Positions 794 to 5,830 of a stretch of DNA of 5,830 nt are shown here, piece after piece (the first letter of the stretch is position 1; each line of letters opens with the position of its first letter). The position numbers and the translations under genes were made by a program. Source of the DNA: Pseudomonadota bacterium. GTDB taxonomy: Bacteria > Pseudomonadota > Gammaproteobacteria > Xanthomonadales > Rhodanobacteraceae. A model generated the notes under the pieces. The model was not told where the DNA came from, made no database searches, and saw only the letters and a program-made list of their open reading frames with translations. Location of the stretch: the NCBI GenBank assembly GCA_021777635.1, contig JAJYDI010000110.1, positions 1 to 5,830 on the forward strand. Direction: 5' to 3'.

Positions 794-1243
794 ATGCAGC
801 TTCGTCGCAGCGCCATCGCCGTTTCCCTGCTCGTTCTCTCGATCGCCGCGCAGGCACAGGCTCCGGCTGCGCCGGTCGGCCCGCCGATCAACCCCAATGC
901 GCTGCACGTGGCGCTCAGCTCGCTGCTGCTGGCCTCGGTCAAGGCGTCGGTCGCCAACGCCATGATCGCCAACGGCAGGGCTCCGGCCAGCAACGCGGCC
1001 GCCAAGGTCGGTGCGCCCGACTACCTCACCAGCAACGAGATCAGCCATATCGTGGTCGGCGCCGGCGGCGTGCTGAACGTCGGTTTCACCGGTGCCGTGA
1101 GCCCCGACGCGGTCGCTGTGACGCTGACACCGAAGCTCGATGCCGGCCGCCGCTCGGTCAGCTGGAGCTGTGTCAGCAGCAGCATCCCCGAGATCGCCAA
1201 GGTCGAGTCCGAGTGCCGTTACGTGCCGGCGGCGGGCCACTGA
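794..1243 (+). CDS. Secreted protein with a type IV pilin-like globular domain
   Basis: 149 residues. Residues 1-21 look like a Sec signal peptide: MQLRR, a hydrophobic core (about 7-18), then AQA with likely cleavage after Ala21. The mature part resembles the C-terminal two-thirds of a type IVa major pilin. It has a helix-like stretch (about 36-59) running into NGRAPASNAAAKVGAP, a region matching the pilin pattern ISHIVVGAGGVLNVGF, then VAVTLTPKLDAG, SVSWSC and a final ECRYVPA. Cys126 and Cys141 would form the disulfide-bonded D-loop of pilins. What is missing is the prepilin leader and the GFTLIE-type hydrophobic helix, so it should not be a PilD substrate or assemble as a normal pilin. A soluble periplasmic or secreted role is inferred; the function is unknown. 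The SD-like GAGG (783-786) overlaps the gcdH stop and sits 7 nt before this ATG, implying co-transcription and probable translational coupling with gcdH. The pilin relation rests on motif reading, not a search. Confidence 0.78.
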   Translation: MQLRRSAIAVSLLVLSIAAQAQAPAAPVGPPINPNALHVALSSLLLASVKASVANAMIANGRAPASNAAAKVGAPDYLTSNEISHIVVGAGGVLNVGFTGAVSPDAVAVTLTPKLDAGRRSVSWSCVSSSIPEIAKVESECRYVPAAGH

Positions 1244-1270: not shown

Positions 1271-1318
1271 GCCTTGATCCAGGACAAGGCGGGCCTGACT
1301 TCGCCGCGGTATCAAGGC
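1271..1318. repeat. 8-bp inverted repeat GCCTTGAT / ATCAAGGC
   Basis: Perfect arms at 1271-1278 and 1311-1318, separated by 32 nt, in the gap before the chorismate mutase-UbiT gene. The arms include TTGAT and ATCAA, AT-rich words that stand out in this GC-rich DNA and equal the half-sites of an FNR/Anr box. GC-rich flanks (CCGCCGCG on the left, GGCGG on the right) could extend the pairing imperfectly. No T-run follows, so it is a poor terminator candidate. It may be an operator pair or chance. Confidence 0.5.
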
Positions 1319-1322
1319 GGCG
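1274..1322 (+). promoter_or_regulatory. Candidate FNR/Anr-activated (class II) promoter for the chorismate mutase-UbiT gene
   Basis: TTGAT-CCAG-GACAA at 1274-1287 matches 8 of 10 defined bases of the FNR box TTGAT-N4-ATCAA (left half 5/5, right half 3/5). TATCAA at 1310-1315 is a 4/6 match to the -10 consensus. If transcription starts at 1322, the -10 lies at -12 to -7 and the FNR-like box is centred at -41.5, the geometry of class II FNR promoters. In E. coli the O2-independent ubi genes are known to respond to FNR. Weak points: the right half-site is poor, and the predicted leader would be only 13 nt, with the SD at its very 5' end. Inference only. Confidence 0.35.
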
Positions 1323-1326
1323 GAGG
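1322..1326 (+). promoter_or_regulatory. Shine-Dalgarno GGAGG for the chorismate mutase-UbiT gene
   Basis: GGAGG lies 8 nt before the ATG at 1335 and fixes that start. The start is also supported because the mutase domain then begins with the expected short leader and aligns from residue 13. It directly follows and partly overlaps the GC-rich extension of the upstream inverted repeat, so pairing there could mask it. Confidence 0.8.
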
Positions 1327-1334
1327 TTCCGCCC

Positions 1335-2222
1335 ATGTCGCTTGCCTTGCCGTTGCCCCCCGCGGGCCATCGTTTCCTGATCGATCGGATCGATGACGCC
1401 CTGATCGACGGACTCGCGCTGCGTCAGCGCATCGTAGCGTCGCTGACCGCGCGCAAGCAGCGCGACGGCTTGCCGTTGCGCGACCCCGCCCGCGAGGAGC
1501 AGGTGCAGGAGCGCGCGCGCCGGCGCGCGGCGCGGCGGCATCTCGATCCTGCCGACGGCGAGCGGCTGATGCGCACGGCGATCGACTGCGCGCTGGCGCA
1601 GCAGCAGCGCACGGGCGCGGCGGCGGCATCCGCCGCGGACCGGACGTCGGCGTTCGCGGACGCCTGGCGCCAGCGCCTGCTGGGCCTGCTGCCGCCACCG
1701 CAGCGTCTGGCACTGCCGCTGCGGGCCGTGCCCGACGTCTGGCAGCGGCGGCTTCTGGAGGCGGTCACCCAGAGCGTGCTGCAGGCGCCGCTGCGGGCCG
1801 GCAAGCTGGCGTTCCTGGTCGATCGCCGCATCGCCATCGAGGTGACCGACCTTGATCTGCGCTGGGTGCTGACCGCGCAGGCCGATCGCCTGCGCACCTG
1901 CGAACGCAGCGCCCCGGCCGCAGCGGCCGTGCGCGGGCGCGCGCTGGAGTTCCTGCTGCTGGCCAGTCGCCTCGAGGACGCCGATACGCTGTTTTTCCAG
2001 CGTCGCCTGGCGCTGACCGGCGACACCGAACTGGGTTTGACCGCGCGCAACCTGCTCGATCAGCTGCCCTGGGAGTCGATCCCGCTCGCGCTGCGCATCG
2101 CACTGCATCGCGCCGCACGTTTCGCCGCCGTCGCGCGCGATGCCCACGCCGCGCGCAGGGCGCCCGCTGCGGTCGCGCTCACGCGGGTGCCTGAACCGGT
2201 GTCGCGACTTCCGCTGCCCTAA
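1335..2222 (+). CDS. ubiT: Chorismate mutase (AroQ class)-UbiT fusion, O2-independent ubiquinone biosynthesis accessory protein
   Basis: 295 residues, two domains. Residues ~12-92 are an AroQ (all-helical) chorismate mutase, aligning ungapped to the E. coli PheA mutase domain at an offset of +2. Arg13, Arg30, Lys41, Asp50, Arg53, Glu54 and Gln90 correspond to E. coli Arg11, Arg28, Lys39, Asp48, Arg51, Glu52 and Gln88; only Ser84 is changed (Ala86). The motif GLPLRDPAREE is diagnostic. Residues ~93-108 form an Ala-rich linker. Residues ~111-275 are UbiT, an SCP2-type lipid-binding domain, with LAFLVDRRIAIEVTDLDLRW and DTLFFQRRL-ALTGDTELGL (217-235), the UbiT signature; a ~20-residue Ala/Arg/Pro tail follows. 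E. coli UbiT is ~174 aa and lacks the mutase. UbiT is required with UbiU/UbiV for anaerobic ubiquinone synthesis; the mutase should convert chorismate to prephenate. AroQ mutases dimerise with shared active sites, so the fusion probably dimerises UbiT. The gene converges on ubiV. Domain calls are strong; the purpose of the fusion is inferred. Confidence 0.9.
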   Translation: MSLALPLPPAGHRFLIDRIDDALIDGLALRQRIVASLTARKQRDGLPLRDPAREEQVQERARRRAARRHLDPADGERLMRTAIDCALAQQQRTGAAAASAADRTSAFADAWRQRLLGLLPPPQRLALPLRAVPDVWQRRLLEAVTQSVLQAPLRAGKLAFLVDRRIAIEVTDLDLRWVLTAQADRLRTCERSAPAAAAVRGRALEFLLLASRLEDADTLFFQRRLALTGDTELGLTARNLLDQLPWESIPLALRIALHRAARFAAVARDAHAARRAPAAVALTRVPEPVSRLPLP

Positions 2223-2409: not shown

Positions 2410-3327
2410 TCAGCGCGCGGCGAGGGGTGCCCCCGGGCGCTGGCGCAGCGGGTCTTGATGGGGCGGTCCCGCTGAGCGCATGCCGGCCTCGCCGTGCCAG
2501 TAGCCGTTGCAATCGCCGCGGCGCTGCGTCGGCGGCTGCGCCAGCGCGGCGCGGAAATAGGCGACCGTGTCGGCCATGCCCTGCGGCTGCGGATACAGGC
2601 GCAGCAGGTTGACGCCGGCCGCGCGCAGCTGATCGATCTCGGGCGCCAGATCGCAGACGGCCTCGCTCTGCACCTGGATGCCGTTGATGCGCAGGAACGG
2701 CGCGCCTTCGCGCGTTGCCAGCGTCAGGCCCTCGGGATCGTCGAGGCAGCGGAAGGCGCAATCGTCCTTGGCGAGGTCGTGCGCGCGGGCGGTGAAGCAG
2801 CGCGCCGAGTAGGCCAGCGGCAGGCGGCCCCAGGCGATCAGCTCGATTTCCGGCAGCATGCCCGCATCCGCCGCCTGGCGGATCTCCGCGAGCTGCTCGC
2901 GGCCCTGCTCGACGCCGGGCACCCAGCGCGTCATGCCGGCCCGGCGCAGCAGCGCCAGCGCGCGCTGGTTGTAGAGGTTGACGCCGGGCCCGGCGACGAA
3001 CGGCAGGCCGCGCTCGCGCAGCAGCTGCACGGCGGACATGTCGTTGGCCTCGACCGCGAACTCGCCGTTGCCGACCAGGCGCTTCAGGCTGGCCAGCTCC
3101 GACTCGGCCTCGATCAGCGTCAGCGCCGACAGCACCACTTCGCGTCCGGTTGCGGCCAGTTCGCGCGCCAGCGCCAGCCAGTCGCCGCCGCGCAGCTCGC
3201 GGCGCTTGCTGCACACGGTTTCACCGAGGTAGATCGCGTCCAGCGGCAGCTCCGCCATCGCGGCATAGAAATCGAGCACCTGCCGGCGCGGCCAGAAGTA
3301 CTGCAAGGGTCCCAGGGTCAGGCGCAT
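2410..3327 (-). CDS. ubiV: UbiV, U32-family 4Fe-4S subunit for O2-independent ubiquinone hydroxylation
   Basis: 305 residues. UbiV forms a heterodimer with UbiU that adds hydroxyl groups to the ubiquinone ring without oxygen. The protein tracks E. coli UbiV (about 292 aa) from its start (MRLTLGPLQYFWPR) through DAIYLGETVCSKRR, GNGEFAVEANDMSAV, LPFVAGPGVNLYN, LPLAYSARCFTARAHD, INGIQ and GDCNGYWHG. The four cluster ligands known from E. coli UbiV (Cys39, 180, 193, 197) correspond to Cys39, Cys177, Cys190 and Cys194, with identical C-x12-C-x3-C spacing. The frame stays open upstream to 3639, but that would overlap ubiU and lacks family similarity, so the ATG at 3327 is chosen. It lies 8 nt after the ubiU stop; the SD is weak (GAG), so it is probably translated by coupling. 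A 20-odd-residue Pro/Arg-rich C-terminal tail after GEAGM is longer than in E. coli. Often mislabelled as a peptidase or collagenase. Confidence 0.96.
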   Translation of the reverse strand: MRLTLGPLQYFWPRRQVLDFYAAMAELPLDAIYLGETVCSKRRELRGGDWLALARELAATGREVVLSALTLIEAESELASLKRLVGNGEFAVEANDMSAVQLLRERGLPFVAGPGVNLYNQRALALLRRAGMTRWVPGVEQGREQLAEIRQAADAGMLPEIELIAWGRLPLAYSARCFTARAHDLAKDDCAFRCLDDPEGLTLATREGAPFLRINGIQVQSEAVCDLAPEIDQLRAAGVNLLRLYPQPQGMADTVAYFRAALAQPPTQRRGDCNGYWHGEAGMRSAGPPHQDPLRQRPGAPLAAR

Positions 3328-3335
3328 GGGCGGAC

Positions 3336-4331
3336 TCAGTGCCAGGAACGGTGGTAGGGACCGAGGGTGGTCTGCGTGCCTTCGGCGACGCGCGCAAGCG
3401 CGGCCTGCCAGTCCGGCTCGACGCGGAAGCCGGCCGGATCGGACTGCACGCGGTCGATCGCGCGGCGCCAGACTGCGGCGACGGCGCCGACATAGGCCGG
3501 GCTGCGCTGGCGGCCCTCGATCTTGAGCGCGGCGATGCCGCAGGCGGCGAGGCGCGGCAACAGGTCCAGCGTGTTGAGGCTGGTCGGTTCTTCCAGCGCG
3601 TGGAAGGTTTCGCCGCGGACCAGGTAGCGGCCCTTGCACACGGTCGGATAGCCGGCCGCCTCACCATTGGCGAAGCGGTCGATCAGCACGTCGTTGAGAC
3701 GCACGCTGCGGCCGTCCGCGGTTTCGTCCCAGCGCACGAATTTCGCCGGCGAGCAGACGCCGTGGCGGTTGGGCGAGGCGCCGGTGACGTAGCTCGACAG
3801 CTGGCAGCGACCCTCGACCATGATGCACAGGCTGCCGAAGGCGAAGGTCTCCAGCGGCACCGGCGACTTCTCGGCCAGACGCTCGACCTGCTGCATCGCC
3901 AGCACCCGCGGCAGTACCGCGCGGCTGATGCCGAACTCCTCGACGTAGAAGCGCAGCGCGGCGTGGGTGGTGGCCGAACTCTGTACCGACAGGTGCCGCG
4001 GCAGCGCGGGGTAGTGCCGTGCGGCATAGTCGAGGACCGCGAGCTCGGCGATGATCAGCGCGTCCACGGCCAGGTCCGCGGCGCGCTCCACCGCGGCTTC
4101 CCAGTGTCCGAGCTGCGCCGGGGTCGGGTAGGTATTGAGCGCGACGTAGATCTTGCGGCCGCGCGCGTGGGCATAGGCGATGCCGCTGCGCAGATCGGCC
4201 TCGTCGAAATTGAGGCCTGGGAACGCGCGCGCATTGGTGGCGTCACGGAAGCCCACGTACACCGCATCGGCGCCGTGATCCACGGCTGCCTGCAGCGAGG
4301 GCAGGCTCCCGGCGGGGCAGACGAGTTGCAT
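3336..4331 (-). CDS. ubiU: UbiU, U32-family 4Fe-4S subunit for O2-independent ubiquinone hydroxylation
   Basis: 331 residues, exactly the E. coli UbiU length and alignable without gaps as recalled. Partner of UbiV in anaerobic ring hydroxylation of ubiquinone precursors. Seen: MQLVCPAGSLPSLQAAVDHG, DAVYVGFRDATNARAFPGLN, the U32-family core FAFGSLCIMVEGRCQLSSY, GVCSPAKFVRW, GYPTVCKGRYLV, LEEPTSLNTLDLLP, KIEGRQRSPAYV and a C-terminal EGTQTTLGPYHRSW. The four cluster cysteines of E. coli UbiU (169, 176, 193, 232) fall at the same numbers here. A strong SD, AGGAGG (minus strand, 4341-4336), lies only 4 nt before the ATG; its overlapping GAGG gives a more usual 7 nt. It is preceded by ubiD (57-nt gap) and followed by ubiV (8-nt gap), all one direction, so an operon ubiD-ubiU-ubiV is likely. 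It has no signal peptide, so it is cytosolic. Confidence 0.97.
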   Translation of the reverse strand: MQLVCPAGSLPSLQAAVDHGADAVYVGFRDATNARAFPGLNFDEADLRSGIAYAHARGRKIYVALNTYPTPAQLGHWEAAVERAADLAVDALIIAELAVLDYAARHYPALPRHLSVQSSATTHAALRFYVEEFGISRAVLPRVLAMQQVERLAEKSPVPLETFAFGSLCIMVEGRCQLSSYVTGASPNRHGVCSPAKFVRWDETADGRSVRLNDVLIDRFANGEAAGYPTVCKGRYLVRGETFHALEEPTSLNTLDLLPRLAACGIAALKIEGRQRSPAYVGAVAAVWRRAIDRVQSDPAGFRVEPDWQAALARVAEGTQTTLGPYHRSWH

Positions 4332-4388: not shown

Positions 4389-5830
4389 TCACTGATCTGG
4401 GTCAGACGCGGTGCCGAACGTCTGCGTCCACAACGCATCGACGCGGCGTTCGACGGCGGGATCGGACCGGATCGGCCGGCCCCAGGTGCGCGTGGTCTCG
4501 CCCGGCCACTTGCTGGTGGCGTCGATGCCGAGCTTGCCGCCGAGGTGGGGCTGCGGGCTGGCGAAGTCGAGGTAGTCCACCGGCGTGTTTTCGGTGATCA
4601 GGCAGTCGCGTGCCGGATCCACCCGCGTCGACAGCGCCCACAGCACGTCGTCCCAGTTGCGTACATCGATGTCGTCGTCGGTGATGATCACGAACTTGGT
4701 GTAGGTGAACTGGCGCAGGTACGACCAGACCGCGAACATCATGCGCCGCGCGTGGCCCGGATAGCGCTTGCGGATGCTGACCACGGCGAGGCGATAGGAG
4801 CACGCCGCCGCGGGCAGGTAGAAATCGACGACCTCGGGAAAGATCCGGCGCAGGATCGGCACGAACAGGTCGTTCAGCGCCATCGCCAGCATCGATGGCT
4901 CGTCGTGCGGCGAGCGCCCCATCCAGCTGCCCTGGTAGATCGCGTCCTCGCGCCGGCAGATGCGCTCGATGGTGAACACCGGAAAGCGGTCGACCGCGTT
5001 GTAGTAGCCGGTGTGATCGCCGAACGGCCCCTCCAGCGCGCTGTCACCGGGCTGGATGTGGCCCTCGAGCACGATCTCGGCGCCGGCCGGCAGGTCCAGC
5101 CCGGTCAGACGGCTGCGCAGCACGTGCCCGCGCGCGCCGCGCAGCAGGCCCGCGAACTCGAATTCCGAGAGGGTGTCCGGCAGCGGCGCCACCGCCGCCA
5201 GCGTGGTCGCCGGGTCGGCGCCGATCGCGACCGCCAGCGGGAATGGTTCGCGCGGATGCAGCTCGCACCACTCGGCGTAGTCCTGGGCACCGCCGCGATG
5301 CGCCAGCCAGCGCATGATCACGCGGTTGCGGCCGATTACCTGCATGCGGTAAATGCCGATGTTCTGGCGGTCCAGCCGCTGGCTGCGCGTGATCACCAGA
5401 CCCAGCGTGACCAGCGGGCCGGCGTCCTCGGGCCAGCAGGTCTGGATCGGCAGATCGCCGAGATCGACCTCCTCGCCCTGCCGGCAGTCGGCGAGGAACG
5501 CTGCCGTGGTGACCGTGCGCGGTGCCACCAGCGCCAGCTGGCCGTAGGCGGGCAGGGCCGACACGGCTTCGCGCAGCGAGCCCGGCCAGCGCGGCTCCTT
5601 GAGCGCGGCGAGCAGTTCGCCCAGTTCGCGCATCGTGGCCACCGGACGGCGCCCCAGCGCCAGCTGGATGCGCTCGGCGCTGCCGAACACATTGCCGAGA
5701 AAGCGGTGCCTGCTCGCGCCGGCGCGTTCGAACAGCAGGGCGGGGCCGGCGCTGCGCTGCGCGCGCTGGCAAAACGTGGTGATTTCGAGATGCGGGTCCA
5801 CCGTCGCGCCGACCCGGCGTAGCTCGCCGC
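4389..5830 (-). CDS. ubiD: UbiD, 3-polyprenyl-4-hydroxybenzoate decarboxylase (N-terminal ~19 residues outside window)
   Basis: Prenylated-FMN-dependent decarboxylase that converts polyprenyl-4-hydroxybenzoate to polyprenylphenol; its cofactor comes from UbiX. 479 residues are visible. The frame is open to the right edge and the first residues ([16 protein letters not shown]) match E. coli UbiD from about residue 20, so the GTG at 5801 is internal and full length is ~498 (E. coli 497). Seen: GGPALLFE-like [32 protein letters not shown] (Arg expected at the catalytic site), [31 protein letters not shown] (Glu/Asp of the active site), [58 protein letters not shown] and WGRPI. Nothing appears broken. 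It is the first visible gene of the ubiD-ubiU-ubiV run; any promoter lies outside the window. UbiD works without oxygen, so it serves both the aerobic and anaerobic routes. Confidence 0.97.

Follow-up and report, generated by a model that had tools for sequence, protein, structure and literature searches.

The cm-ubiT locus

The window, by which we mean the whole 5,830-nucleotide stretch of DNA analysed here, carries on its forward strand a gene (1335..2222) whose 295-residue product joins an AroQ-type chorismate mutase (CM) domain to a UbiT domain, an architecture identified with Pfam and NCBIfam models and common to 79 of the 80 related loci kept. When the open reading frames of the window are read, the frame runs from an ATG to a TAA without an internal stop. 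A GGAGG motif 8 nt before the ATG (1322..1326, forward strand) can be read as a likely ribosome-binding site. Pfam places CM_2 at residues 15-91 of the fusion protein (E 5.3e-13, 49.4 bits against a cut-off of 27) and SCP2 at residues 151-242 (E 1.2e-12, 48.5 bits against a cut-off of 21.3), and the NCBIfam UbiT equivalog NF047962 covers residues 129-247 with 126.7 bits against a cut-off of 46.9. A preliminary description of this DNA had proposed an AroQ-type mutase and a UbiT/SCP2 domain in one uninterrupted frame, and the three scores, all above their cut-offs, confirm that proposal. Its domain limits were also about right, with the CM helices spanning residues 9-96 in the structural model and UbiT beginning at about residue 118. 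On the DNA, the CM domain (residues 9-96, including the Pfam match) occupies 1359..1622, a linker that evolves fast by dN/dS (residues 97-117) occupies 1623..1685 and the UbiT domain of SCP2 fold (residues about 118-265, based on NF047962 and on Foldseek matches to UbiJ-SCP2) occupies 1686..2129, all on the forward strand. A gene for a small pilin-like protein (794-1243, forward strand; Pfam Pilin, 34.4 bits) lies directly upstream of the fusion gene.

The genes ubiD, ubiU and ubiV are located on the opposite strand, convergent with the fusion gene. ubiV (2410..3327, reverse strand, 305 residues) and ubiU (3336..4331, reverse strand, 331 residues) score 367 and 532 bits with the NCBIfam equivalogs NF047965 and NF047963, respectively, both above cut-off. 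The ubiD decarboxylase gene, identified from position 4389 onward (4389..5801, reverse strand), reaches 451 bits with TIGR00148 and 644 bits with PRK10922, the latter below its cut-off of 788. Its frame is open at the window edge and its 5' end is therefore probably cut. These matches uphold the three neighbours named in the preliminary description. Four cluster cysteines are kept in UbiU and likewise in UbiV of the window: C39, C177, C190 and C194 of UbiV form a CXnCX12CX3C set, and C169, C176, C193 and C232 of UbiU are found at the same positions in E. coli UbiU. The CXnCX12CX3C motif has been reported for E. coli UbiV, and UbiU and UbiV are described as 4Fe-4S proteins, in the accessible part of PMC6747719.

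Conserved catalytic residues and fold of the mutase domain

Residues 15-91 of the fused CM align without gaps to residues 13-89 of E. coli CM (1ECM; phmmer E 0.097), and residue numbers in the fused domain equal the E. coli numbers plus 2. We take the catalytic set of E. coli CM to consist of R11, R28, K39, D48, R51, E52 and Q88, with S84 as a further position. Conservation was assessed over 86 distinct fused loci out of 102. R13 (R11 in E. coli; codon 1371..1373), R30 (R28; 1422..1424), K41 (K39; 1455..1457) and the adjacent R53 and E54 (R51 and E52; 1491..1496), all encoded on the forward strand, are each kept in 86/86 fusions. D50 (D48; 1482..1484, forward strand) is D in 82 and N in 4 of the 86, Q90 (Q88; 1602..1604, forward strand) is Q in 85 and H in one, and the position equivalent to S84 is A or G in 85. 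Seven of the 80 CM columns are invariant and five of these are catalytic (hypergeometric 4.6e-5). R13, R30, K41, R53 and E54 are also kept in all 121 rows of a second set. In a comparison of 26 close pairs, dN/dS has a median of 0.17 in the CM domain (largest 0.46), 0.64 in the linker (residues 96-117) and 0.135 in UbiT. Judged by these rates, the fused CM domain is under purifying selection. Because invariant catalytic residues are combined with purifying selection, the mutase is very probably catalytically active, and an inactive relic is very unlikely.

An AlphaFold2 model of the fusion based on 58 sequences (mean pLDDT 86.5, pTM 0.65) consists of three AroQ helices (residues 9-43, 51-67 and 72-96) and an SCP2-like part. 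In Foldseek comparisons the fused CM matches 1ECM (TMt 0.84, rmsd 1.2 A, E 0.016) and the UbiT part matches UbiJ-SCP2 (TMt 0.70-0.75, E from 9e-6). Fold and catalytic residues are as in the AroQ mutases 3rmi and 1ECM, which differ in not being fused to SCP2. None of the NCBIfam CM equivalog cut-offs is reached by the fused CM (best PRK09239, 40.5 bits against 120), as would be expected of a distinct branch. The domain could also be imagined as a structural or sensory module that dimerises UbiT or reads the chorismate level without any catalysis. AroQ proteins are intertwined dimers and UbiT without a CM domain exists elsewhere, both of which would suit such a module; the concentration of catalytic positions among the invariant columns would not, and we assign this explanation very little probability.

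Distribution of the fusion

A genome scan found 355 relatives, of which 80 loci were kept, and both domains lie in one frame in all of these except L067. Both Pfam domains are present in each of the 120 protein homologues listed (the best 120 of 1060), and a protein 100% identical to that of the window is encoded on contig JAGWPB010000030.1 of the Lysobacteraceae MAG REEB27. A chance or assembly join as the origin of the fusion is ruled out by these observations. Named hosts include Rhodanobacter, Dyella, Frateuria, Arenimonas, Thermomonas, Pseudoxanthomonas, Lysobacter and Dokdonella, and some members are labelled 'predicted lipid carrier protein YhbT/chorismate mutase' in JGI automatic annotation. 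Dyella jiangningensis SBZ 3-12 has two copies of the fused locus (L025 and L026), about 5 Mb apart. A MAG labelled Erythrobacter sp. also has the fusion on one of its contigs (L060), which groups with gammaproteobacterial MAGs in the UbiT tree and is probably misbinned.

An order sample of 398 Lysobacterales/Xanthomonadales genomes was searched with the fusion protein (E <= 1e-14) and with UbiU (E <= 1e-60), yielding matches in 94 and 99 genomes, respectively. A fusion was called where the protein match started at residue 15 or earlier, with HMM confirmation for the loci fetched, and the CM part is covered in 59 genomes. UbiU is present in 59/59 of these and a fusion was called in 0/299 genomes without UbiU (Fisher value 4e-44), an association among related genomes that is largely inherited from UbiT and thus not an independent test. 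Confinement of the fusion to genomes with ubiU, a check put forward with the preliminary description, is therefore seen in this sample, and is a weak test because UbiT itself follows ubiUV. Within a nested sample of 200 order genomes, UbiT scores above cut-off in 56 and UbiU (E <= 1e-60) is found in 57. By HMM, 23 of the 56 UbiT regions are fused and 33 are not. UbiU is present in all 23 fused genomes; in one of these, G085, the match is only partial and scores under the family cut-off.

The phylum sample comprised 398 genomes, 185 of them UbiT-positive; besides 4 genomes known to be fused, 80 UbiT regions were read (usually about 7 kb on each side), leaving 101 outside the count. CM was found in 0/80 of these regions and ubiU in 56/80, and a convergent CM beside ubiTUV elsewhere in the phylum was accordingly rejected for the regions read. 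In these samples, the fusion is a trait of Lysobacterales/Xanthomonadales, among which it is widespread, and most ubiUVT bacteria examined manage without a fused CM.

UbiT proteins without the mutase domain

On a UbiT tree of 126 rows, built by a quick method with SH-aLRT support only and with G652, G710 and G685 outside it, the fusion label needs five changes and inner support is weak. Genome G193 adjoins Frateuria flava within the fused clade (SH-aLRT 85) and carries a ubiT gene (L135, about 5956-6570) whose CM part is deleted save for its tail; UbiU and UbiV were not found in this genome at E <= 0.001. Coupled loss of CM and ubiUV is thus seen in this one genome and is not significant (table 59,5;0,1; p 0.09). 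Two further genomes, G710 and G652, keep ubiU and ubiV, and their UbiT proteins are 63% and 60% identical, respectively, to that of the window. Frame length had hinted that both might be fused, a reading that was rejected since no CM was found around ubiT (L225 6995-7804 in G710; L226 6001-6939 in G652) within the 12-13 kb examined. By eye, the L226 ubiT frame continues from an apparently shortened upstream membrane-protein gene. ubiU, ubiV and a CM-less UbiT also occur in L067, G039, G075 and G685.

Because G652 and G710 keep ubiUV without a CM in the region examined, the CM does not appear to be strictly needed, and on such comparisons it is helpful at most, not essential, for UbiUV bacteria. 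Selection maintains the CM domain in most of the sampled species of the clade, yet the domain is not indispensable. Dispensability of this kind would be expected of a supply aid where another CM also makes prephenate.

Regulation and gene neighbourhood

The FNR consensus is TTGAT-N4-ATCAA, and a putative FNR-like site with two mismatches to it lies 47 bp before the start codon of the fusion (1274..1287, forward strand). FNR-like sites with at most two mismatches are found upstream of 26/84 fusions against 1.9 expected and upstream of 26/49 ubiU genes against 1.45 expected, where expectations were derived from mononucleotide shuffles and the loci are related. Most of the listed ubiU sites (23/25) are located 67-78 bp before the HMM match. 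ubiU of the window has no such site, the best candidate in the 300 bp upstream showing three mismatches; the operon to which it belongs may begin with ubiD, beyond the window edge. From these sites, we infer that the fusion is expressed anaerobically.

Neighbouring genes were counted by clustering the neighbours in 86 fused loci and annotating one representative per cluster. A NirK-type cluster is present in 30/86 loci, an Fnr-like regulator in 14 and NorB in 6; no denitrification gene was found among the window frames scanned. A nadA (quinolinate synthase) cluster occurs in 55/86 fused loci (e.g. L023:7820-8890), and a gene for a DGC-domain protein, located just before the fusion in L028 (6289-6975, forward strand), belongs to a cluster found in 24/86. 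Directly upstream of ubiU, two loci encode a protein that resembles prephenate dehydrogenase and has a CM domain at its C-terminus (L006:12438-13487 and L020:12346-13431, both reverse strand), a second CM at either locus, identified by domain scan in L006 and by likeness in L020. A CM-TyrA-like gene also lies near the fused locus in L034, where the protein was scanned, and in L037.

Chorismate use in genomes with the fusion

Another CM_2 gene is present in 23/24 fused genomes; G125 has only the fused CM, and the second match in G169 is partial. Genome G001 (locus L001), used in place of the window's own genome, has two further CM_2 genes. With another CM gene in 23/24 genomes the fused CM looks dedicated, and in G125 it could serve amino-acid synthesis, being the only CM seen there. 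UbiC was found in 0/23 fused genomes. Isochorismate lyase (compare PchB) shares the AroQ fold, and together with the absence of UbiC this would be compatible with the fused domain being a chorismate lyase-like enzyme and the source of 4-hydroxybenzoate where UbiC is missing. However, the mutase residue set is kept, the NCBIfam isochorismate lyase equivalog gives the fused CM only 12.3 bits, far below its cut-off of 126, and 23/23 fused genomes encode an FkbO/Hyg5-like chorismatase domain, which we take to be of the XanB2 type. XanB2 chorismatase is reported, in the accessible text of PMC4682078, to make 4-hydroxybenzoate for CoQ8 in Xanthomonas. A lyase role is consequently extremely unlikely. 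Given the other CM genes and the chorismatase domain, the synthesis of Phe/Tyr and that of 4-hydroxybenzoate can probably both do without the fused CM.

A different alternative is that the CM is an ordinary extra mutase for Phe/Tyr, co-translated with UbiT by happenstance, with its prephenate mixing in the cytosol. Prephenate is a diffusible metabolite, and the case of G125 would fit such a role. The surplus of CM genes elsewhere, the enrichment of FNR-like sites at both the fusion and ubiU, the lack of any fusion in order genomes without UbiU and the deletion of CM in G193, itself without ubiUV, all argue against it, and we consider this explanation improbable.

A predicted prephenate source for UbiUV

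The product of cm-ubiT is most likely a bifunctional accessory protein in the O2-independent synthesis of ubiquinone, one that gives UbiUV its own source of prephenate, a reading drawn from comparative sequence data. The N-terminal AroQ domain would convert chorismate to prephenate, presumably as a dimer if it behaves like other AroQ enzymes, and the C-terminal UbiT domain would carry the polyprenylated ring intermediates. UbiU and UbiV, 4Fe-4S proteins of the U32 family, would in turn hydroxylate the ring, taking the oxygen from prephenate. In this way prephenate from an anaerobically expressed source would arise at the site of lipid-substrate presentation, separate from the Phe/Tyr pool, and would pass locally from the fusion to UbiUV. 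A prephenate supply for UbiUV had already been suggested in the preliminary description and is the best explanation for the intact residues, the purifying selection, the surplus CM in 23/24 genomes, the presence of UbiU in 59/59 and the FNR-like sites; a strict need for the fused CM, however, does not survive the comparison with G652 and G710.

UbiT is known from published work as the partner of UbiUV. For the U32 proteins RlhA and TrhP, hydroxylation is reported to need prephenate made by CM (PMC6599085, accessible text). Prephenate as the UbiUV donor was left open in the available text of a 2023 study in mBio (PMC10470549); its role in supplying UbiUV with oxygen was published in 2024 (PNAS 2024 e2321242121, as cited in the accessible part of the review PMC11574389). 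The fusion had been taken to point to prephenate as the oxygen source: it fits and corroborates that role, which is not new, since it was already published in 2024. Three ring hydroxylations per ubiquinone are reported in the available text of PMC10470549, and about three prephenates would thus be used per 4-hydroxybenzoate in one ubiquinone. At this ratio it is reasonable to have a mutase set aside for the pathway, and the concern raised earlier, that the fusion is puzzling because it would drain chorismate, is weakened. More tentatively, CM-UbiT may be a metabolite-supply scaffold that hands prephenate straight to UbiUV, with donor and lipid substrate arriving together and about three prephenates spent per quinone, a possibility that we rate as real and somewhat short of even.

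The window proteins resemble E. coli UbiT and UbiU-UbiV in having a UbiT domain above the equivalog cut-off and the UbiU/UbiV cluster cysteines. E. coli UbiT has 174 residues with its SCP2 part at 45-133 (PMC6747719, accessible text) and, judging from this length, would lack a mutase domain, unlike the window fusion. The ubiT-ubiU gene fusion of Zymomonas mobilis (Pelosi 2019, accessible part of PMC6747719) is similar in tying UbiT to the pathway by gene fusion; it joins the carrier to a hydroxylase, whereas the window fusion joins it to a predicted prephenate-making enzyme. RlhA and TrhP are likewise U32 enzymes with prephenate-dependent hydroxylation and differ in acting on RNA and in drawing prephenate from PheA/TyrA, according to the available text of PMC6599085. 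In PheA (CM-PDT) and TyrA (CM-PDH), an AroQ domain is also joined to a protein acting on its product, whereas the window fusion pairs it with a lipid carrier from the ubiquinone pathway. The Zymomonas ubiT-ubiU fusion was the only one found by term search in the accessible parts of the UbiT/UbiU/UbiV literature (PMC6747719, PMC11707229, PMC13386864, PMC10470549 and PMC8854274). No published account of a CM-UbiT fusion was found in the literature searched, the full text of PNAS 2024 e2321242121 lying outside that search.

Where PheA and TyrA alone make prephenate, a local source of it can hardly be told apart from amino-acid synthesis. A tool for testing local prephenate use by UbiUV is offered by the fusion protein, together with its catalytic residues and its natural CM-less relatives. 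If the scaffold reading is true, the fusion would be, to our knowledge, the first natural module to couple the making of an organic oxygen donor with a hydroxylase that works without O2. In one bacterial order, the fusion lends independent evolutionary support to the view that prephenate donates the oxygen used by UbiUV.
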